Origin: Norana najaformis | Taxonomy: Eukaryota > Annelida > Clitellata > Crassiclitellata > Hormogastridae | DNA: 64,000 nucleotides | NCBI GenBank assembly: GCA_964023275.1 | Contig: OZ029914.1 | Coordinates: 35,700,424-35,764,423 of the forward strand | Direction: 5' to 3' | Shown: one piece after another, positions 1-47,950 of the stretch | How positions within the stretch are numbered: position 1 is the first letter of the stretch | Layout: each line of letters starts with the position of its first letter | Made by a program: the position numbers and the translations under genes | The notes under the pieces: model-generated | What the model was told of the DNA's origin: nothing | The model's database searches: none | The model's input: only the letters and a program-made list of their open reading frames with translations

Positions 1-440
1 TCTAAACAACTCGAAGAATGCCTGAATGCATTGGTGGAAGGACCAAAGTTTTATGAATCAGACCAACTACATGCGGGACGAGTTGCATTGGTTGCCAATA
101 TGAAAACGGATTGAGTCTAAGTTGATTTATGCTGACATATAAAGTCTGGCTGGCCGGCTGTGCTCCACCCCGTCTTAGAAAACCATGCATTTCAGTGTCA
201 TCTGTCTCTTAGTGCAGATTTCTTCGCTGTGCAACAGAGGGTGATATGTTTGTTCCATCGTCCCCTACTTCCACAATGCAAAATGGAAACTTTGCCATTA
301 TTCTGAAACAGACTTTTACGCAACCTGCAACATGAGTTTCTTGTCCGTTCTATTCGTCTATCTCGGCAGCGGTTGAACACCATTTCATTTGATTGTGGTC
401 TTGCATTGTTAGGTCAGGAACACTCTGATGAATTTTCTCT
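1..440 (+). mobile_element. LINE C-terminal relic (copy 1)
   Basis: Degenerate 3' end of a non-LTR retrotransposon. Translation in shifting frames gives the typical end of a LINE reverse transcriptase ORF: a WLP-like block, then a LLTYK-like block near 130-180, then RSLRSA-like residues followed by a VP. Stops and frameshifts are frequent, so it is dead. The tail repeats a GGCGCTATA motif twice (about 446-480). The same relic is at 40640-41060 in the duplicated copy, so it predates the duplication. Confidence 0.6.
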
Positions 441-539
441 AAGAGGCGCTATAGATTAATTTTCTTTAAGAGGCGCTATATAAATTTCTCCTTAACTGCA
501 TGGACTTAGATCTGGCTCTGGCTCTGGGTCTAGCTTAGA

Positions 540-673
540 AACTGGTGTCATCTTGCGTCCCTCAAGGCTCAGTACTCGAGCCGTTATTTTACGGCCTCTA
601 TACGGCTGATTTGACTCAACTCACCTCTTGTGTCTGGGAGCGCGGGTTCATCAATACGCTGGCGACATCAACC
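540..673 (+). mobile_element. LINE reverse transcriptase core fragment
   Basis: Encodes the LINE reverse transcriptase motif VPQGSVLEPLFY and, in another frame about 20 codons later, HQYAGDINLL. The latter corresponds to the catalytic YADD box with one Asp replaced by Gly. The fragment stops where a Ty3/gypsy element begins at about 674. In copy 2 the same LINE resumes on the far side of the gypsy element (45236 onward), so the gypsy element landed inside this LINE. Confidence 0.7.
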
Positions 674-795
674 TGTTGTAATATTGTGACATTCAGGATT
701 AGAGAGACAGTCTATAAAACCAGGGAACCAGAAGTTAGGTTAGGGAAGAACAGGCGTCATGAACGTGCGCAATAAGGGTGGACAAATACAATATC
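674..795 (+). repeat. 5' LTR remnant of gypsy copy 1
   Basis: Short segment beginning TGTTG and ending just before the primer-binding site. It contains a TATAAAA box near 713 followed by the start of the transcript, as expected for a retroviral-type promoter. The same segment is at 41253-41376. The exact ends cannot be fixed because no 3' LTR is present for comparison. Confidence 0.5.
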
Positions 796-808
796 TGGCG
801 ACGAGGAT
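796..808 (+). other. Primer-binding site, tRNA-Ser(GCU) type
   Basis: TGGCGACGAGGAT is the reverse complement of CCA plus the 3' end of animal tRNA-Ser(GCU) over 13 bases. It lies right after the LTR remnant and before gag, exactly where minus-strand priming should start. An identical site is at 41377-41389 in copy 2. Confidence 0.7.
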
Positions 809-829
809 ATTTTACTAATACTCGTAAAA

Positions 830-1757
830 ATGTGGGACCTTGGGGCAATACCCCAATTCACCCCGTTTCTGCCTGACGTGGACCCGGCTTCAACGGCATT
901 TCGATGGAAGAAATGGACCGATAGATTCGAAAATCTCATGACAGCGCTCAACATAACTGATAACAATCGCAAATGTGCCCTCCTCCTCCACCTACCTGGC
1001 GAAACAGTTTATGACATCTTTGAAGGATTGGTCGTGCAAACAGTACCGGGTGACGCCCACCCAGATGAGGATAACGCATACATTACCACGAAACGTGCGC
1101 TTGATGAACATTTTAGTGCAAAGAAAAAAGTCGAGTTCGAAATATATAATTTTCGCTTAGCCAGACAAAATACTGATGAAACCACGGACGCTTATCATGC
1201 AAGGCTTCGCTCGCTGGCGAACACTTGCACTTCAACGAGACTGCGAACACGAGATCTTGCAGACTCTGAAATGACGCTGAAAGTTTTGTTAGACACAGCC
1301 CGTGCAATGGAGATGTCTGAACGGCAGGTAAAAGTCATTGAAACAGGTTTCGGTGAGCGAGATACGAAAAAACCACACGGTCGCTCGAGTGGTCAGTCAA
1401 CCAAGACAACCATTACGTCAACACGTCAAGAAATTGAGATCTACAGAACAGGTATATCGTAATTATGGTCTTCTGTATCCACACCCCGGTGGGAAAATGC
1501 AGTGCTCAGCATGGGGGAAAACCTGTTTTGCAAAGAATAAACAAAACCACTTCCAGAGACAATGTCGTAGCATCATGCAGTTTCAACGATCGATACCACA
1601 AGGTAAAAGAAACACTGTTCAGAACATGACCAGAGCTAAACAACAAGTTCGTCAAGTACGTGAGGACATGCATGAAGACGTGAGCGATGAAGAGACAGAG
1701 GATGAGTATGTATTCGTTATTGAAGAAAAGGGAAAGATGAAACAACCGTATGCCTGA
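830..1757 (+). pseudogene. gag: Gypsy gag with zinc knuckle, frame-broken
   Basis: An open stretch of about 210 codons (830-1462) resembles gypsy-type Gag capsid: a WKKWTDRFENLM block and a run rich in charged residues. A frameshift near 1380-1440 moves the reading into the 1338-1757 frame, which carries a cysteine- and histidine-bearing nucleic-acid-binding segment and an acidic end. Gag would form the retrotransposon particle. The copy 2 equivalent shares most residues but carries a TGG to TGA change near 41497. Confidence 0.7.
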
Positions 1758-1784
1758 GCCCTTGTTAATGGTTTCCCAGTTGAA

Positions 1785-2054
1785 ATGATGATTGATTCAG
1801 GTGCCAGTGTCAATATCATAGACGAAAATATGTTCCAAACATTCCCTAATCCTCCGAATCTGAATCTGTCGCAGACTAGAATATATTTATACGCATCTAA
1901 ATCACCAATAGATATAATAGGTTATTCTGAAACTAAAGTGAGGCATAAAAGAAACGCCACAAACGCCGTGTTTCATGTTGCCAGAGGAAACAAAGGATCA
2001 CTCTTGCGCTTCACGACTGCATTGGAATCATTAGAATCCACCTCAATGCCATAG
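1785..2054 (+). pseudogene. Gypsy aspartic protease fragment
   Basis: Contains MMIDSGASVNIID, the DSGA active-site motif of retropepsins, followed by a short beta-rich segment. The frame then closes at 2054. It sits between gag and reverse transcriptase, as in Ty3/gypsy pol. A TGA at 1756 separates it from the upstream frame; copy 2 reads through the same place (TGT). Confidence 0.8.
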
Positions 2055-2390
2055 AACCAATGGAACCAATAACGACTGAGTGGCTGACAAACAAATAGCC
2101 TCAGCTCTTTGAAGGAATAGGCAAGCCGAACAACTTCAAGGTAAAACTTCACATTGATGACCATTGATAAACCATCGGCACAATAACACAGAAGGGTACC
2201 GTTCCACATACGCAAGAAGGTAGAAGACGAACTGAATCTTCTGCTTAAACAAGGCATTATTGAACGAGTCAATGGACGAACGCCTTGGGTATCACCCATA
2301 ATAACACCAGTAAAGCCTAAAAATCCAGATAAAGTACGCATTTGTGTCGACATTCGACAAGCGAATAGAACCATTCTTCGTAAACGGCAT

Positions 2391-3290
2391 GTGACTCCAA
2401 CTCAAGAAGACATCATCAGTGACCTAAATGGGGCGAAGAAAATTTCCAAGTTGGATCTTCGTGCCGGTTACCATCAACTGGAACTAGATCCTGCTAGCCG
2501 TTACATCACAACGTTTTCTACCCATATCGGTTTGTTCCGCTACAAGAGATTAAATTTTCGGATTTCTTCAGCCAGCGAAGTGTTTCAAAATATCATAGCG
2601 CAGGTGTTTGATGGTATCCCTGGTGATATGAATATCAGCGATGACATAATCGTATATGGTTGTACAGCTGCAGAACACGACAAGAGTCTACTTGCTGTTA
2701 TTAAACGGTTATTGGATTGTGGCTTAACTTTAAGTAAGAACAAGTGTGAGTTGAACAAAACGAAACTTTCTTTGAACATGTATTCTCAGAGAAAGGAGTT
2801 GGCGTTGATCCTGAAAAGGTTGATGCTCTTGTAACGGTCACATCGCCAACAAACGCAACAGAGGTTAGAAGCCTGCTGGGGATGATAAATTACAGTTCGC
2901 GGTTCATTCGAGACTATGCAACAAAGACTGAACCTTTAAATAAGCTAACCAAAGCGGATGTACCGTTCATATTGGGAACCTGTTGAACATAAAGCATTTA
3001 ATGAGCTCAAAACATGATTGTGTCAGAATGCAGTTACGGCTTATTATTATAACAGGATGATCAAGAAGCAAGTAGTCGCCTATGTTAGCCGATCTTTGAC
3101 AGATGTTGAGACGCGTTACTCTCAGACATAATGTGAAGTACTGGCATGCGTCTGGGCATGCGAACGTTTACACGGATATTTGTATGGATGTTCTTTCGAC
3201 ATGATTACAAACCACAAACCGCTTGAGGCTATATATGGGAATCCTCGATGCAAATTATCTGCAAGAATGGAAAGATGGAGCATTAGGTTG
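2391..3290 (+). pseudogene. pol: Gypsy reverse transcriptase and RNase H, broken
   Basis: Residues KLDLRAGYHQLELD carry the first catalytic Asp of gypsy reverse transcriptase, and ISDDIIVYG is the DD motif. A frameshift near 2780 interrupts the thumb region. The following frames hold RNase H pieces (VVAYVSRSLTDVE, then TNHKPLEAIYG). The coding sequence stops at the deletion junction, so most of the connection to integrase is gone. Confidence 0.85.
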
Positions 3291-3996
3291 CAGCGCTTTT
3301 GCAATGTACCCAAAAGCGCTACATTAGCTGTCTTGAGACATATACGCATCCTATCAAAATTACAAAATCTTGCCACCTAAAGGCAATTATAAAATAAAGG
3401 CACATTATTATGATTATGAATATTATTAGAAAGAAACGAGATAACAGCACTATTTAGGATCAGCATAACGTGGATTATAAAGCAGATATTGGCTGCTCAC
3501 AAATTACATTACAAGTATTCAATGCACATTATTATTTTTTAATAATATTACTATAAAATATTGTTTATTATAATCACTGCTCTGAAATAGTTATTATATT
3601 ACAGTGATGTCATATCCTAAATAATTACTCTCTGCCGATATTGGCCCCTCTGAATGTGCCATAAAAGCAGCTGCATTAAAACGCTGGAGGGCCAAATACA
3701 GCAAGAAAGAGGCAGTCTCTCTCATGTCTCCTGTCGTTCGTAAAGCCATCTTGGTTTGAATATTCTTGTAAATAAAATTATTAATATTATTATAACTAAT
3801 TTACCAGTCATATTATTATAACTAGTTTAATAGTTTCTCACATTATTATTATTTTTTTATTATTATTATCATTATTATTGTTGTTGTTGTTATTACTTCT
3901 GCTATTATTTCTACTACTACTATTCTAGGCCAGTCACCTTGGTTTCATACAAAAGGATACTTGCACTTGCTGTCTAGCGCACAAACATCACCAGAC

Positions 3997-4068: not shown

Positions 4069-4427
4069 CTGTTAGAAAAAAACCTGACACAGTGTATACA
4101 AACACAGCTTAATTAAGAACGTCAAGCCATTTCATTCTGAACGCTTCAGACATTTTTGTTAAATGGACCAGTATGAGTTATAAATAAATTAAACTAACAG
4201 CCACTCCAAAAAAAAAACAGCAACACATCACAGTGAATGGAAGATAGTGATCCCTCTTTTGGTGCTGCCAAATCATTCTGCATTGTAATGAGGTTATGTT
4301 ATAAAGAAGTAATTACATACTAAGGTTGATCATTTAAACTTAGGGTCCATGTTTGCAACTACATTGTATATGAGATGCATCATTCAACTAGTGTACACGA
4401 TCATATGGCCAATTGAAGTAACTTAAC

Positions 4428-4559: not shown

Positions 4560-5298
4560 CTGAAATAATACAAACTAGGAAAATGACTAACAGCACATAA
4601 AGACACTTAATATAGTGCAATTTGAGGACCTCACAAAAGTCCTGCACACATGGCCATCTAACAGATCAGTGTAGGGTGCGTTATAAAAAAAACACCGTTT
4701 TGGTCAAGTGCTAATAAGATGTCTTTTCATTGGATTTTTTGGTCATGTTTGCACCTCATCCAATTAATTATTAGACCTCAAGATCACACATATGTATCTA
4801 AGGAGTTTCAATTGATGCCGCCAACCAAATGTGTTACCGTTTTACCATTACATTGTAGCTTTTTTCAACAATAGAAGAATGTTTTCGGGATTTCTTTTCA
4901 GTCTGCTGTTGTGCTGCTGTCGTGTTGTAATATATTTAATCATTCAATACCATGTTCTATAAACATGTTCGATTCTCAAGTAAAAATTAAGGCTACTTAC
5001 TTACTTAAACTGCAGACTGCAACTTTAAAAATCTGTTACCGATAAAGCAGGACGATTTTGCGTTTAATGCAAGACCGATTGACGTCTTGGAACAGGGTGA
5101 AAATAACTAAAACACAAAATCATCACAAACGAAACAATGTCAAAATTGCTCTACAGTATCTGTTTCACGTATGGTAGGCCTATACAAATATGAAACATGG
5201 TCGGGGTCGACATTACGTCAGCACCTTTATAAACTTCAGATTACAGTTATAACTACCTTAAATCTTCTGTCCAATTTGAAGTTACCAGTAGGCTCCAC

Positions 5299-5344
5299 GG
5301 CAGCACATTTCTTCGACATAATCTAATATTTTTTTCTGACTAAA
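5299..5344 (-). CDS. Gene A exon 13 (tentative)
   Basis: Reads FSQKKILDYVEEMCC, which aligns with the FSNCSKQSIYKTIE segment that ends the ADAM17 catalytic domain. Acceptor tttgatcag and donor GTGGAG give phases that fit exons 12 and 14. The donor is weak, and an alternative 37-base exon (5286-5322) in another frame also fits the phases, so this call needs transcript evidence. The gene B counterpart carries a one-base deletion. Confidence 0.45.
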
Positions 5345-5609: not shown

Positions 5610-6818
5610 CTTAAAATTAGAAAATACACAGCAACTGCTCCAGGCAGATTTTAAAAAATACTCTATGCTTATTATGCGTAAACTAGAACATGCTTTATAG
5701 CCTCAAGTTGTTTGTGTTGCAATTACCACATTTTAAGACAACATAACAAGAAGAGTTAAAGATAATAAACTTATCAAAAAAGTAGAATTTAACAAAATTC
5801 TCTACCAATATGCTAGAACATGGCAAACTATATAATGGATACCAGTTTATGAAAATTGGCAGAGGGCTAGAGAGTTGAAAGTCTAAGGCGTGTAAAGTAT
5901 TTTACAAAGACAACTATCTAGATATAAGGGGAATTGCAGTAGGCCTACAGCAGAGTGCAGGAGTTAGGCAGTAACGCAAATAGTAATATCGTATGTTAAA
6001 TCCTCATAAGGACTTCATATATAGGACATATGAAGTTCTTAGGAAATTGCTATCATATTCTCACCCTATCTTCAACATATAATACTTATGACGTTGCTGT
6101 TGGGATCCCATGTATGTGCGTTAGTACGTATTTTTGTATGTATGTAGATATCAAGGCACTTAATATAGCACATTTTGAGTAACTCACAAGAGTGCTCCAC
6201 ACATGGCTATCGAACAGGTCAGTGTAGGGTGCGTTATAAAAACACCATTTTGGTCAATTAACCGTGCCAAGTGTCACTTAATGAAACAAACAGTCTCACA
6301 GAAATCACAACAACCCTTATCCCTTCCAAAATTTAACCTAAGTTGCACAAAAACAAGAAGTATATCATCATAACTGAAATTGTGATGAAATGTAGCTGAA
6401 ATGAATTGGCTTTTGTCTTAGTTGCAAAACTTATAAATCCACTCTCTTATATTTTATAATGTGTACTCTTTTATTATTGAGTTTAATTTCAGTGTGATCT
6501 TACACCGAAAAAGAAAACATGACAAAACCGTGCAAGGTGTTTTACCATAACCATTTGTGTCAATTTAACATGGCAGTAAAAAAAGAACCATTTCTATAGA
6601 AATCATAATAGTGCTAATGAATTCCAATTATCTCTAACAATCTGAATACTTCTAAATTACTTTAAATGATTCTGAGTTGCATGTAAACACTGGCAGTGCA
6701 TCATAATAAACTGTAATGAAATGCAACAAAACCGAAACATCTCCCCTTTCGAAATTTCAGCAATAAAGCAGCTTGAATACTTTTTTGTTCCAAATCTCAG
6801 CCAAGGTTTAACACATAC

Positions 6819-6824
6819 CAAGTT
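6819..6824 (-). CDS. Gene A 6-nt microexon with catalytic Glu
   Basis: On the minus strand: ttttcag|AACTTG|gtatgt, with a good pyrimidine tract and consensus donor. Exon 11 ends in CAT G and exon 12 starts GA CAC. Inserting AACTTG gives CAT GAA CTT GGA CAC, that is HELGH, and keeps frame. Without it the protein would read AHGHN and lack the catalytic Glu. The same site in gene B (49299-49304) gives AAATTG, that is HEIGH. Seen directly: sequence, splice signals, phase and conservation. Inferred: use in mRNA. Confidence 0.8.
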
Positions 6825-7918
6825 CTGAAAAGAAGCAGATACTCAATGCAAAATATTTTGACTACATTAAAAATTCCAAAGTATTATGCTTACATGATAA
6901 AAAAATCTATGAGAGATTGACTGAATGAGGAAAAAGCAGTTACCAGAATTGGGAAGCGAGATATTCTTAAAAACTTGTAAGATTCAGCAAAAGAAGTAAA
7001 GCAAATCTATACATGCATCCCTAAAAATAGCTATAAATAGCTGTTGAGGAAACTCCTCAAACATTCATGGTAACACCAATTGCCATTTAATTAAAGACAA
7101 GTGTCAAAGATGAATGTTATGAGTGCAATACTCTGTGTTTCTCAAAGTTGTGTACTATGGTCTCTGTTCATGATCTTTCTAAGTGTCAATCAATTGGGCT
7201 GTAAACTGTCGACTCGCCCAACATGTAGCTCGACATGAAACACTCAGTATTTATTTTTCGCGTATACATATTTGAATAACTGCACAGTTCAACGACAACA
7301 GAACTTGAACGTCACCGTGGTTGCTAAGTGCACAAATCTTTTATCAACATTTGTAACTTAAATTACCAAGTATACGACACACGGCTGCTACAAAATCTTT
7401 TTTGCACTCTACCAAGAATGGATTTGGGGTTGCGTTTTACGGCATATTTCCCGCCAAGTGAAAGGTCGCCGCTAACGTCAGACAATGCGCGAGAAAGTCC
7501 GTCAATCAGAAGCATATGTTTAAAATGCGCACGAATGCCAACCAATCACAAAGAAGTCAACAACCATATGATTCATCTACATTACGTCACAGAAATTTGG
7601 ACCTTTAGGGCCGGAAACCTGCCGGTGATCCGCAACAGTATCCCCTCTAAAAGTTCCCCCCGGCGGATCTATTTCGGAACAGATTCTTCCCCCCGGCGAA
7701 GTTGTTCTCCAAACTAAGTATCCGGGAGGAAGAAATTATTTCACCCCCCCCCTTCGAAATAATCTCAGTAAAAACAACATTTATCAATGTCAAGTGATAA
7801 TGTTTGCAGATTTTAGTTCCTGATCTTGAAGTTCACAGTTATCTCCAATTTCAGCGCTCTCGTTTTCGAACTGGTGCAGTTGGAAACTCCGATACTTCCT
7901 GTTTTTCAAGGCAACGCG

Positions 7919-40639: not shown

Positions 40640-41060
40640 GAATGCATGAAAAGTCCAATGTTTTATGAATCAGACCAACTACATGTGGGACGACTTCCAA
40701 TGGTTGCCCATATGAAGATGGATTGAGTTTAGGTTGATTTATGCTGACATATAAAGTCTGGCTGGCCGGCTGTGCTCCATCCTGTCTTAGAAAACCGTGC
40801 ATTTCAGTGTCATCTGTTTCTGACTGCAGATCTCTTCGCTCTGCAACACAGGGTGATCTGTTTGTTCCATCGTCCCCTACTACCACAATGCAAAATGGAA
40901 ACTTTGCCATTATTCTGAAACAGATTTCCACGCAAGCTGCAACATGAGCTTCTTGTCCGTGCTATTCGTCTATCTCGGCAGCGGTTGAAGACCATTTTAC
41001 TTGATTATGGTCTTGCATTGTCAGGTCAGGCGCACTCTGATGAATTTTCTCTAAGATGCG
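40640..41060 (+). mobile_element. LINE C-terminal relic (copy 2)
   Basis: Duplicate of the relic at 1-440 and the left limit of visible duplication. It reads MLTYKVWLAGCAPSCL and RSLRSATQGDLFVPSSPTT in nearly one frame, clearly the end of a LINE reverse transcriptase ORF. Better preserved than copy 1. Confidence 0.7.
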
Positions 41061-41114
41061 CTATATAAATCTCTCCTTATCTGCATGGACTTAGATCTGG
41101 CTCTGCCTCTAGCT

Positions 41115-41252
41115 TAGACACTAGTGTCATTATGCGTCCCTCAAGGCTCAGTACTCGAGCCGTTATTTTACAACTTCTACGCGGCTGATTTGACTCAACT
41201 CACCTCTTGTGTCTGGGAACGCCGGTTCATCAATACGCTGGCGACATCAACC
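41115..41252 (+). mobile_element. LINE reverse transcriptase fragment, left of gypsy
   Basis: CVPQGSVLEPLFY and, in a second frame, HQYAGDINLL (mutated YADD). It is interrupted at 41253 by the gypsy LTR; the LINE continues at 45236. Confidence 0.72.
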
Positions 41253-41409
41253 TGTTGTAATATTGTGACATTCGGGATTAGAGAGACAGCCTATAAAAGT
41301 AGGGAACCGGGAAAGTTAGGTTAGGAAAGAGCGGTCGTCTTCAACGGGCGCAATACGGGCGGACAAATACAATATCTGGCGACGAGGATATTTTACAAAT
41401 ACTCGTAAA

Positions 41410-42215
41410 AATGTTGGACCTTGGGGCAATACCCCAATTCGCGCCGTTTTTGAGTGACGTGGACCCGGCTTCATCGGCATTTCGGTGGAAGAAATGAACC
41501 GATAGATTCGAAAATCTCATGACGGCGCTCAACATAACTGATAACAATCGCAAACGTGCCCTCCTCCTCCACCTACCTGGCGAAACAGTTTATGACATCT
41601 TTGAAGGCCTGGTCGTGGAAACAGTACTGGGTGACGCCGACACAGGTGAGAATAACGCATACGCTACGACGAAACGTGCGCTTGATGAACACTTTAGTCC
41701 AAAGAAAAACGTCGAGTTCGAAATATAACATTCGCTTAGCCAGACAAAATACTGATGAAACCACGGACGCTTTTCATGCAAGGCTTCGCTCGCTGGCCAA
41801 AAGTTGCACTTCAACGAGGCTGCGAAGACGAGGTCTTGCAGACTTTGAAATGACGCTGAAAGTTTTGTTAGACACAGCCCGTGCAATGGAGACGTCTGAA
41901 CGACAGGTGAAAGTCATTGAAACAGGTTTCGGTGAGCGAGATACCAACAACCACAAGATCGCTCGAGTGGTCAGTCAACCAAGACAACACGTCAAGAAAC
42001 TGAGATCTACTGAACAGGTATGTCGTAATTGTGGTCTTCTGTATCCACATCCCGGTGGGAAAATGCAGTGCTCAGCATGGGGGAAAACCTGTTTTGCAAA
42101 CAATAAACAAAACCACTTCCAGAGACAATGTCGTAGAATCATGAAGTTTCAACGATCGATATCACAAGGTAAAAGAAACATTGTTCAGAACGTGAGGAAA
42201 TGCAGGAAGACGTGA
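41410..42215 (+). pseudogene. gag: Gypsy gag, copy 2
   Basis: Same product as 830-1757. A stop (TGA at 41496-41498) replaces a Trp codon and a frameshift near 41728 moves to the frame with CRNCGLLYPHPGGKMQC. The Cys/His segment after it is intact. Confidence 0.7.
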
Positions 42216-42586
42216 GTGATGAAGAGACAGAGGATGAGTATGTATTCGTTATTGAAGAAAAGGGAAAGATGAAACAACCGTATGCCTGTGTCCTTGTTAA
42301 TGGTTTCCCAGTTGAAATGATGATTGATTCAGGTGCCAGTGTCAATATCATAGACGAAAATATGTTCCAAACATTCCCTAATCCTCCGTATCTGAGTATG
42401 TCGCAGACTAGGATACAATCATACGCATCTAAATCACCAAGAGATATAATAGGTTATTTTGAAACTAAAGTGAGGCATAAAAGAAACGCCGCAAACGCCG
42501 TGTTTCATGTTGCCAGAGGAAACAAAGGATCACTGTTGCGCTTCACGACTGCATTGGAATCATTAGAATCCACCTCAATGACATAG
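42200..42586 (+). pseudogene. Gypsy aspartic protease, copy 2
   Basis: Opens with an acidic stretch and contains MMIDSGASVNIID with the DSGA active site. It is open for 128 codons and reads through the position where copy 1 has a stop (TGT at 42287 against TGA at 1756). It ends at TAG 42584, as copy 1 does. Confidence 0.8.
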
Positions 42587-42724
42587 AACCAATGGAACCA
42601 ATAACAACTGAGTGGCTGACAAACAAATAGCCTCAGCTCTTTTGAAGGAACAGGCAAGCTGAACAACTTCAAGGTAAAACTTCACAATGCAGAAAGTGTT
42701 AAACCATCGGCACAATAACACAGA

Positions 42725-43521
42725 ATGGTACCGTTCCACATACGCAAGAAGGTAGAAGTCGAACTGAATCCTCTGCTTAAACAAGGCATTATTGAACGAG
42801 TCAATGGACGAACGCCTTGGATGTCACCCATAATAACACCAGTAAAGCCTAAAAAACTGATAAAGTACGCATTTGTGTCGACGTTTGACAAGCGAATTGA
42901 ACCATTCTTCGTAAACGGCATGTGACTCCAACTCAAGAAGTCATCATCAGTGACCTAAATGGGGCGAAGAAATTTTCAAAGTTGGATCTTCGTGCTGGTT
43001 ACCATCAACTGGAACTAGATCCTGCTAGCCGTTACATCACAACGTTTACTACCCATATCGGTTTGTTCCGCTACAAGAGATTAAATTTTCGGATTTCTTC
43101 AGCCAGCGAAGTGTTTCAAAATACCATAGCGCAGGTGTTTGATGGTATCCCTGGTGATATGAATATCAGCGATAACATAATCGTATATGGCTGTACAGCT
43201 GCAGAACACGACAAGAGTCTACTTGCTGTTATTAAACGGTTACTGGATTGTGGCTTAACTTTTAATAAGAACAAGTGTGAGTTGAACAAAACGAAACTTA
43301 CCTTCTTTGAACATGTATTCTCAGAGAAAGGAGTTGGTGTTGATCCTGAAAAGGTTGATGCTCTAGTAAAGGTCATATCGCCGACAAACGCAACAGAGGA
43401 TAGAAGCCAGCTCGGAATGATAAATTACAGTTCGCGGTTCATTCGAGACTATGCAACAAAGACTGAACCTTTAAGTAAGCTAACCAAAGCGGATGTACCG
43501 TTCATATTGGGGACCTGTTGA
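42725..43521 (+). pseudogene. pol: Gypsy reverse transcriptase, copy 2
   Basis: First Asp in KLDLRAGYHQLELD. The DD motif is changed to ISDNIIVYG (D to N), so it is catalytically impaired even where the frame is open. A frameshift near 42900 separates the fingers from the palm. The thumb reads through where copy 1 is frameshifted. Confidence 0.85.
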
Positions 43522-43559
43522 ACATAAAGCATTTAATGAGCTCAAAACATGCTTGTGGC

Positions 43560-45200
43560 AGAATGAAGTTAGGGCTTATTATGATCCGAATAAGCGGTCA
43601 TAAGTCACAGTTGATTCGAGCACTGTGGGTCTTAGTCCTATTCTTGCCCAACAGGATGATCAAGATAGAATGCAAGTAGTCGCCTATGTTAGCCGATCTT
43701 TGACAGATGTTGAGATGCGTTACTCTCAGACCGAACGTGAAGCACTGCATGTGTCTGGGCATGCGAACTTTTACACAGATATTTGTATGGATGTTCTTTC
43801 GACATGATTACAGACCACAAACCGCTTGAGGCTATATATGGGAATCCTCGATGCAAATTATCTGCAAGAATGGAAAGATGGAGCATTAGGTTGCAGCCAT
43901 ATGACTTTATGATCATTCACAAAACTGGAAAAGATAATCCTGCTGACTACATGTCTCGACACCCAATGACCGATCGAGGAGAAAGAGCCGACAGTTCAGA
44001 AAAGATCTCTGAGGAATATATTAATTTTATCATTCACAACACTGTTCATAAAGCCATGACGTTAGAACAGATTGAAGAAGCAGCCATAAGTGATCATATT
44101 CTACAGAAAGTTCTTGAATGCATTAAATCTAACAACTGGAGTGAAGCACGCAAGTCAAGTCTTCGGCAGTTCTACCATGTCAGAGATGAACTATGTTTAT
44201 CAGCAGATGCGAAGCTGTTGTTGAGAGGTACTCCAATCGTGGTACGGGATATTCTACAAAAGGAAGTCATAAGATTGTCACATCAAGGTTATCAAAGCAT
44301 ACCAAAGACAAAGAAACTTCTCAGACAGAAAGTTCGGTTTCCTGGTATAGACAAAGCGGCAGAAGACGCAGTGAGAAAATGCCTATCTTGCCAAGCAGCC
44401 ACACCGGAAACGTCTTCAGAACCGTTCCATATGTCACCACTACCAAAAGGTCCGTGGCAGGACCTATCGGCTGATTTCTGAGGTCCATTGCCAATTGGAG
44501 AATATTTATTTGTTATCTAGGATGACTATTCAAGGTATCCAGTCGTTGAGATAGTCACTACAACGTCGGCCAACGCAGTGATTCCAGTATTTGATCGAAA
44601 TGTCTCAATGTTCGGAACACCAGTGACAGTAAAAAGTGACAATGGCCCTCCATTCAACAGTGACCAATTCCGAAAGTTTGCTCAGTGTTCCGGTTTTATT
44701 CATCGACGCATCACTCCCTGTTGGCCGAGAGAAAATGGTGATTTATGCGAACTCTAAAGAAATCATTTCAGATAACTCATATGGAGAAGAAGAATTGGAA
44801 ACAAGAAATGTACACTTTTCTTCATGCGTACAGGTCAACACCGCACAGCACCACGGAAACGTCTTCATCAACTGAACTTTCGTTGAGATATCCATTTACA
44901 GGTCGCATTCCTGAGGTAACAAAATCTGTTCCTGATGAAAATGAAGAGTTAAGAGCACGTGACACTACAGCTAATGAGAAAATGAAAGCGTATAGTGACT
45001 TTCGAAGCCACTGCAAAGACAAGCTTAGAGTGGGCGATACTGTGTTGGTGAGAAAACCTCGAGGAAACAAGCTATCCAGCTGCTATGATAACATTCCACT
45101 GAAGGTGAAAGATATTCGTGGAACAATGATCACAGCTGCTAGACAAGGATACTCCGTAACAAGAAATTCGACAAGAAGAGTACCATGTTTGGCTGGGCAC
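43560..45200 (+). pseudogene. pol: Gypsy RNase H and integrase, copy 2
   Basis: RNase H pieces (VVAYVSRSLTDVEMRYSQTE, ITDHKPLEAIYG) precede an integrase with an N-terminal HHCC zinc arm (LSHQGYQSIPKTKKLL...CLSCQ), the core Asp in LSADF, a second in KSDNGPPFNS and a PRENG block. A GPY-like end follows (VKDIRGTMITAARQGYSVTR). Several stops. Most of this part is deleted in copy 1. Confidence 0.82.
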
Positions 45201-47005: not shown

Positions 47006-47753
47006 CTGAAATAATACAAAGTAAGCAAATGACTAACAGCACATGAAAACACTTAATATAGTGTTATTTGAGTACCTCACAAAAGTGCTGTACACACGTG
47101 GCTATCTAACAGATCAGTGTAGGGTGTGTTATGAAAAACACCGTTTTGTCAAGTGCTGATAAGGTGTCTTGTCATTGGATTTTTTGGTCATGTTTGCACC
47201 TTGAGTAGCCACATAATTATTAGATCTCAAGATCACATATATGTATCTAAGGAGTTTCTGTAGAGGCCGCCAACCAAATGTGTTACCGTTTACCGCTACA
47301 TTGTAGGTTTTTTCAACAATAGAAGAATGTTTTCGGGATTTCTTTTCAGTCTGCTGTTGTGCTGCTGTTGTGTTGTAATATATTTAATCATTCTATACCA
47401 TGTTCTATAAACATGTTCGATTCTCAAATAAAAATTAATTCTCCGTACTTACTTACTTACTTAAACTGCAGACTGCAACTTTAAAAATCTGTTACCGATA
47501 AAGCAGGACGATTTTGCGTTTAATGCAAGACCGATTGAATTCTTGGAACAGGGTGAAAATAACTAAAACACAAAATCATCACAAACGAAACAATGTCAAA
47601 ATTGCTCTACAGCATCTGTTTAACGTATGGTAGGCCTATACAAATTCGAACTATGGTCGGGTCGACATAACGTCAGCACCTTTATAAATGTCAGATTACA
47701 GTTATAATTACCTTAAACGTTCTGTCAAATTTGAAGTTACTAATAGGCCCTAC

Positions 47754-47798
47754 AGCAGCACATTTCTACGCCAGAATCTAATATCTTTTCAGACTAAA
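47754..47798 (-). pseudogene. Gene B exon 13, frameshifted
   Basis: Counterpart of 5299-5344. One base is missing in the A-rich run (GAAAAGATATTAG against CAGAAAAAAATATTAG), which brings TAG into frame after six codons. The gene A exon itself is tentative. Confidence 0.45.
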
Positions 47799-47950
47799 CT
47801 GATGAAATGAGATTTGACTTAATCTGGAGATTAAACTAGAAGACCGAGCTATCATCTGGTAATGCTTTGAAAATTATCAAAATTGCACAATTGAAGTGCT
47901 CAAAAAGATTTTTGATTTTCGATAACTAATGATAAGAAAATTACACATAC

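Follow-up and report, generated by a model that had tools for sequence, protein, structure and literature searches.

A six-nucleotide exon predicted to encode the catalytic glutamate of ADAM17-like metalloproteases in the annelid Norana najaformis

Introduction

The closest precedent for a tiny in-frame exon carrying an active-site residue is the 9-nucleotide (nt) mini-exon 2 of plant GH32 genes, which code for acid invertases, fructosyltransferases and fructan exohydrolases. According to passages in three reports (PMC4477480, PMC3340406 and PMC8831610), this mini-exon encodes DPN, including one of three conserved active-site residues. Parts of the same reports state that its loss from a chicory 1-FEH allele predicts inactivity (PMC4477480), that the potato mini-exon is alternatively spliced in the cold (PMC3340406), and that it was unannotated in rice and maize (PMC8831610). 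Neural microexons regulated by eMIC/SRRM4 are also short, often preserve the reading frame and are enriched in UGC near the 3′ splice site, a feature reported for eMIC-dependent microexons in Drosophila in a section of PMC8797185. Here we describe a 6-nt exon predicted in ADAM17-like metalloprotease genes of the annelid Norana najaformis. The two gene copies at the centre of the analysis, copy 1 and copy 2, lie on the minus strand of a 64,000-nt stretch of the genome (hereafter the window; assembly GCA_964023275.1, contig OZ029914.1, here C2:35700424-35764423), the assembly comprising 608 Mb in 17 contigs.

The Glu of the HExxH motif acts as general base in HExxH metallopeptidases, and it is this residue that the 6-nt exon would supply. 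Vertebrate ADAM17 (TACE), whose structure 1bkc is the best solved-structure match of the window gene's spliced catalytic region, has the same HExGHxxGxxHD zinc site. In mouse ADAM17 the zinc-binding domain lies on one exon and the source mentions no separate microexon, which suggests that one intron was probably lost there. By analogy with the GH32 mini-exon, an active-site residue on a tiny exon is of a known kind, although that system concerns plants, a glycosidase of an unrelated family, an exon of 9 nt and a different residue. The locus also differs from neural microexons, as skipping would here remove the catalytic residue itself and the CUAAY branch point was not seen in the 15 microexons that we located. 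No printed record of such a microexon in an animal metalloprotease was found in searches of one open-access library, as judged by titles and the opening lines of abstracts, and the review PMC13149111 yielded nothing on the subject.

Results

A predicted 6-nt exon would complete the zinc site

In copy 1, exon 11 (9779-9702, minus strand; flanks accag and gtaactga) ends with ACC ACG GCT CAT G, that is TTAH followed by the first base of a Glu codon; two possible acceptors lie 6 bases apart, of which the second is the start used here. Exon 12 (5609-5497, minus; flanks tctaattttaag and gtatgtgt) starts with GA CAC AAC TGG. Direct joining of the two exons keeps the frame and gives TTAHGHNWGS, whereas inclusion of the six bases AACTTG found at 6824-6819 (minus; flanks gcttcttttcag and gtatgtg) completes GAA (Glu), CTT (Leu) and the G of the Gly codon of HELGH and restores HELGHNWGSxHD. 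The HExGHxxGxxHD zinc site is therefore complete only with the microexon included. Because both exon ends are fixed, only a six-base exon can restore the exact HExGH spacing. Splice signals stand on both sides (cttcttttcag/AACTTG/gtatgt), so that the element has the form of a microexon defined as an internal exon of at most 51 nt. The sequence CAGAACTTGGTATG occurs once in the window (6814-6827, minus), and an Rfam scan of the window returned no match. An earlier note on this DNA had read the same exon ends, CAT G and GA CAC, and had proposed a 6-nt microexon as the source of the catalytic Glu and the residue after it, with skipping neutral to the frame. All of this agrees with the splice anatomy described here, the skipped product reading HGHNWG.

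Alternative ways of building the motif were tried. Extension of exon 11 into the intron was rejected, as it reads GT AAC TGA and stops; extension of exon 12 upstream was rejected as well, since TTTTAAG gives no Glu. The copy 1 intron (9701-5610) contains 17 AG-N6-GT strings, and only one of them, AACTTG itself, encodes an in-frame E-x-G. No other six-base exon for HE is thus available in copy 1, and a different exon supplying HExxH, which the earlier note had named as one outcome that would contradict it, was not found among these strings. In copy 2 the alternative, encoding EQG, is preceded by only 5 pyrimidines in 14 positions and was also rejected.

Copy 2, a tandem paralogue at higher window coordinates, repeats this anatomy, except that Ile takes the place of Leu. 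Its exon 11 (54715-54635, minus) ends with CATG/gtaact, its microexon AAATTG (49304-49299, minus; flanks ttgctttttcag and gtatgtg) gives HEIGH, and its exon 12 lies at 48063-47951 (minus). The intron that separates exon 11 of copy 2 from its microexon contains a 579-codon open stretch (52627-50891, minus) that by eye resembles a mobile-element gene.

The question of chance was addressed with 1,000 dinucleotide shuffles of each intron. Flanked by AG and GT, a bare E-x-G in frame arose in 31% of shuffles of the copy 1 intron and 42% of those of copy 2; requiring the middle residue to be hydrophobic lowered these shares to 12% and 17%, respectively. When E-x-G was instead combined with a pyrimidine tract and a GTRNG donor, splice criteria that were chosen after the microexon site had been seen, the counts fell to 0/1,000 (copy 1) and 5/1,000 (copy 2), and with the hydrophobic middle residue added, to 0/1,000 and 1/1,000. 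A bare E-x-G match is by itself weak evidence, and it is the further copies that make the case. Support independent of the splice criteria comes from copy 2, from 13 additional genes of this genome, from the homologous intron stretch of 11 array genes and from eight protein models of other animals with a gap of exactly two residues at this place, all described below.

The microexon recurs in an array and on other chromosomes

Data mining of the whole assembly revealed that the window genes (13678-5497 and approximately 61340-47951, both minus) belong to a tandem array of ADAM17-like genes with at least 15 exon-12 copies. The sequence CAGAACTTGGTATGTG occurs five times in the genome, always within C2 35.24-35.84 Mb, and its reversed control does not occur. 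A search with the exon-12 peptide gave at least 21 matches at E-values up to 10, at least 15 of them on C2 at 35.247-35.862 Mb and at least 6 elsewhere. Of the 15 array exon-12 copies, 12 have a 6-nt exon that fits the frame and stands between a pyrimidine tract and gtatgt. Outside the array, the three clear matches (E-values below 1e-3, from 8e-8 to 6e-4) lie on C1 (two) and C15 (one); their microexons are AATTTG, AAATGG and AATTTG, giving HEFGH, HEMGH and HEFGH. The microexon sequences of these 15 genes are AACTTG (five genes), AAATTG (four), AGATTG (two), AATTTG (two), AGATGG (one) and AAATGG (one). All six sequences read E-[LIMF]-G, with GAA or GAG as the Glu codon, and for 12 of the 15 genes, the window's two included, all three exons could be placed in the sequence exon 11, microexon, exon 12. 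The feature is not peculiar to copy 1: besides the 12 array copies, three other genes of this genome have it, and it is probably present in other phyla.

These genome scans demanded A[AG]NNNG between AG and GT and were unable to detect a broken microexon. A count of invariance is circular when the pattern already prescribes the splice sites along with most exon positions, and an unfiltered BLAST search was therefore made with the 351 bases around the copy 1 microexon and no condition on the exon. Eleven array genes (the window's two plus nine fetched loci) contain a homologous stretch, and all 11 show CAG, then AACTTG, AAATTG or AGATTG (E-L-G or E-I-G), then GTATGT. No broken microexon was seen among these 11 stretches; the array copies share descent and are not independent tests. 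The possibility that AG-AACTTG-GT is a random intronic match, the gene being a pseudoenzyme that joins HGH, could draw on the 31-42% of shuffled introns that yield E-x-G between AG and GT. We consider it very improbable given the fitting 6-nt exon in 15 genes with six coding-compatible sequences, the hexamer that fits in 11 of 11 array genes found without a filter, and the conservation of GHNWGS.HD downstream.

The three weakest exon-12 matches (E-values 0.25 to 1.8; C4 and C13) have HELGH, HEIGH and HEMGH within one open stretch. One of them, L024 (C4:43460656-43460769), is ADAM-like, with HELGHSFGAEHD in a 573-codon open frame, and is possibly an intron-poor copy.

A two-residue gap in ADAM17-like proteins of other animals

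Three protein searches, of which the last two contributed the best 120 of 182 and the best 120 of 136 matches, yielded 239 homologous proteins, every one of which was scanned. HELGH was present in 209 and HEFGH in 20, and 8 read precisely H-GHN. The remaining two are a fish ADAM10 with HELGHSLG, outside the scan pattern, and a fragment that ends ahead of the site. The H-GHN proteins are those of the ticks Ixodes scapularis (isoform X4), Haemaphysalis longicornis and Rhipicephalus microplus, of the molluscs Ostrea edulis, Lymnaea stagnalis, Nucella lapillus and Plakobranchus ocellatus, and P0186, an entry of EukProt that our tree places together with the jellyfish Rhopilema. The eight models with the two-residue gap are P0132, P0147, P0152, P0158, P0168, P0176, P0179 and P0186.

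On a quick tree of 81 rows (chosen invertebrate ADAM17-like proteins, three vertebrates and the two window copies), these eight proteins are scattered: eight changes are needed, at least seven of them forced by supported branches, and clustering is no stronger than with shuffled labels. Close relatives in Dermacentor, Crassostrea, Rhopilema and Pomacea keep both residues. The residues are missing from 8 of 53 annotated tree rows and from none of the 26 rows from unannotated contigs (one-sided Fisher p 0.034), a weak test in which the split was assigned from search listings and in which some of the 26 contigs are RNA-like in length and a few exceed 10 kb, so are probably genomic. Among the matches listed, the closest relative, P0002 (from a 2,798-base unannotated contig), shares 47% identity with copy 1 and has TAHELGHNWG at the site. 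A gap at the exact place of the microexon in scattered lineages would be best explained by the same tiny exon having been missed in annotation, or by skipped isoforms, and the public gap models are probably annotation errors.

Remaining gene structure

Upstream of exon 11, the copy 1 gene includes an exon with a furin-like SRPKR and the start of the catalytic domain (13678-13551), two further catalytic-domain exons (12886-12800, LSAIDSIDQIYRGHQF...FEVKK; 12226-12149, IHIFPQTTLGFPYTNDKTWGADEFLQ) and an exon at 10187-10043 (VFGKDPSLRNVCLGHLVTAREF...GGICSSG), all on the minus strand. The catalytic domain matches Reprolysin_5 (E-value 4.9e-27) and Reprolysin_2 (1.2e-23), both above cut-off, and the spliced catalytic region matches the solved structures of ADAM17 (1bkc, 1.6e-18), ADAM10 (9.5e-11) and ADAM33 (5.3e-5). 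On these matches the window gene is nearer to ADAM17 than to ADAM10 or other ADAMs. The Disintegrin domain of copy 1 scored 31.1 bits (E-value 4.2e-7), under the 35.1-bit cut-off. Later exons of copy 1 fall beyond the window, and copy 2 has exons resembling the membrane-proximal ADAM17 domain and a transmembrane segment, as judged by eye from comparison with human ADAM17 and P0002.

The disintegrin-like exon of copy 1 (4559-4427, minus) is followed by TTAAGT and has no GT donor, read-through meeting an in-frame stop. It ends with ..TGTAG, directly before TTAAGT, in both copies (at 4427 in copy 1 and approximately 46881 in copy 2, minus), where ADAM17 homology suggests a splice, and using the GT one base earlier puts the next exon out of frame. 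This end suggests that the protein is truncated or that splicing is unusual here. The two copies of exon 13 (approximately 5286-5344 and 47740-47800, minus) are of unequal length, by one base, and that of copy 2 would stay open only with a shifted acceptor. Remains of a Gypsy-type-like retroelement, recognized by eye, lie at window positions 1-3400 and approximately 41000-44000, downstream of both copies, and were apparently duplicated with the unit.

Divergence of the array copies

Aligned non-exon sequence of copies 1 and 2 differs at 635 of 8,356 positions (7.6%). Several exons near the active site exceed this level: Ed, the exon at 10187-10043 in copy 1 (40/144 compared positions), exon 11 (16/80), the exon designated Ec (17/75) and exon 12 (17/111). 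Exons Ea (12/130) and Eb (10/92) lie slightly above it, and exons 14 (3/124) and 15 (8/119) below. For Ed, exon 11, the microexon and exon 12 together, nonsynonymous divergence (dN) is 0.29 and synonymous divergence (dS) 0.18; adding Ea and Eb gives dN 0.195 and dS 0.208. Ec, within which the frame shifts, was excluded from these estimates. The disintegrin exon has dN 0.010 and dS 0.124. In a comparison of exon 12 across 12 array copies, divergence is 5% over its first 32 bases and 17% over the rest, with 6% and 9% in the flanking introns. Active-site exons that outpace the introns while the zinc-site core stays unchanged look like a case of diversifying selection.

These values bear on the possibility that the array genes are decaying, the microexon being real and inherited in copies that no longer make working proteases. 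Decay would account for the disintegrin exon of each window copy being without a GT donor, for the one-base length change in copy 2 exon 13 and for three array exon-12 copies that have neither exon 11 nor a microexon nearby. Neutral decay is not the pattern seen, given that dN exceeds dS near the active site while introns differ by 7.6% and the zinc-site core is unchanged, and that dN is far below dS in the disintegrin exon; we regard this explanation as unlikely.

Discussion

Our results indicate that AACTTG is probably a genuine exon of 6 nt, one that is normally spliced into the transcript of an ADAM17-like metalloprotease gene, whose flanking introns would be ancient and which annotation misses. 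Splicing would join CAT G, AA CTT G and GA CAC to encode H-E-L-G-H, and leaving the microexon out would produce an in-frame H-G-H, a zinc site deprived of its general-base Glu and of one further residue. Inclusion would then be the default and would be required for protease activity. The arrangement is common to the array genes and to the ADAM17-like genes on other chromosomes, where it is seen in the DNA, which is consistent with two old flanking introns. Most likely it predates the split between cnidarians and bilaterians, as protein models with the exact two-residue gap suggest. An exon of this length tends to escape both gene prediction and read alignment, and some published ADAM17 proteins are for this reason probably without the catalytic Glu on paper only.

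Several observations weigh against this interpretation. The microexon has been read here from DNA and not from RNA, and in tick, mollusc and cnidarian genes its presence is deduced from the gap in protein models, for which the Fisher comparison is a weak test. A bare E-x-G commonly arises by chance, and the copy 2 intron holds a second in-frame E-x-G (the EQG mentioned above). No acceptable microexon was found for L010, L016 and L018 within 10, 30 and 30 kb upstream, respectively, and no exon 11 either; L016 has a weak E-L-G candidate, AGCTGG (8/14 pyrimidines), and the next copy, L011, lies beyond the 10 kb of L010. Exon 11 of L009, L012 and L042 was not found in the fetched stretches. A second in-frame candidate exists in the L041 intron (1/14 pyrimidines), and L042 has another candidate, AGATGG, 7.4 kb further upstream (10/14 pyrimidines, donor gttttg). 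Outside the array the microexons have weaker tracts, with 7-8 of 14 pyrimidines, and the C4 match has its motif uninterrupted. Finally, the disintegrin exon has no GT donor in either window copy, which implies that the array genes may not make full-length proteins.

A different reading of the same exon, in line with the on/off switch for protease activity suggested in the earlier note, is that it is alternatively spliced, for example in neurons through an eMIC/SRRM-type factor, and that skipping yields an in-frame, catalytically dead ADAM17 with a possible role as decoy or dominant negative. Skipping is frame-neutral in the 12 genes in which all three exons were located, and TGC lies at most 16 bases from the exon in 10 of the 12 array genes and in two of the three others, the array TGCs being, on the other hand, inherited in common. 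Eight database proteins are without exactly these two residues, one of them labelled isoform X4 of Ixodes scapularis, and cold-induced skipping of the 9-nt invertase mini-exon in potato, as stated in a passage of PMC3340406, provides a parallel. The residues are nevertheless present in 26 of 26 tree proteins from unannotated contigs, where clustering at 90% identity would hide minor isoforms. The CTAAY branch-point motif is found in none of the 15 microexons within 60 bases upstream, and the AG-free zone, 15 bases long in copy 1, extends over 30-35 bases in twelve other genes and over 58 or more in the remaining two. The eMIC code, which comprises UGC near the 3′ splice site, a long AG exclusion zone and a strong CUAAY branch point, would be followed in part at best, and we hold regulated skipping to be improbable, the normally included exon remaining our preferred interpretation. 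A broader proposal also appears improbable: that, since at least the cnidarian-bilaterian ancestor, many invertebrate ADAM17s have had a 6-nt exon for their catalytic Glu, and that skipping of this exon is regulated and yields an in-frame dead sheddase, an ancient splice switch for shedding that vertebrates have lost through intron loss.

Database proteins of ticks, an oyster, gastropods and a jellyfish relative seem to be catalytically dead ADAM17, which they probably are not, and pseudoenzyme surveys, target searches and evolutionary studies could be misled by such models. The genes described here would also provide a clear test case, both for spliceosomal recognition of a 6-nt exon whose skipping must be avoided and for the possible use of such an exon as a switch in animals.
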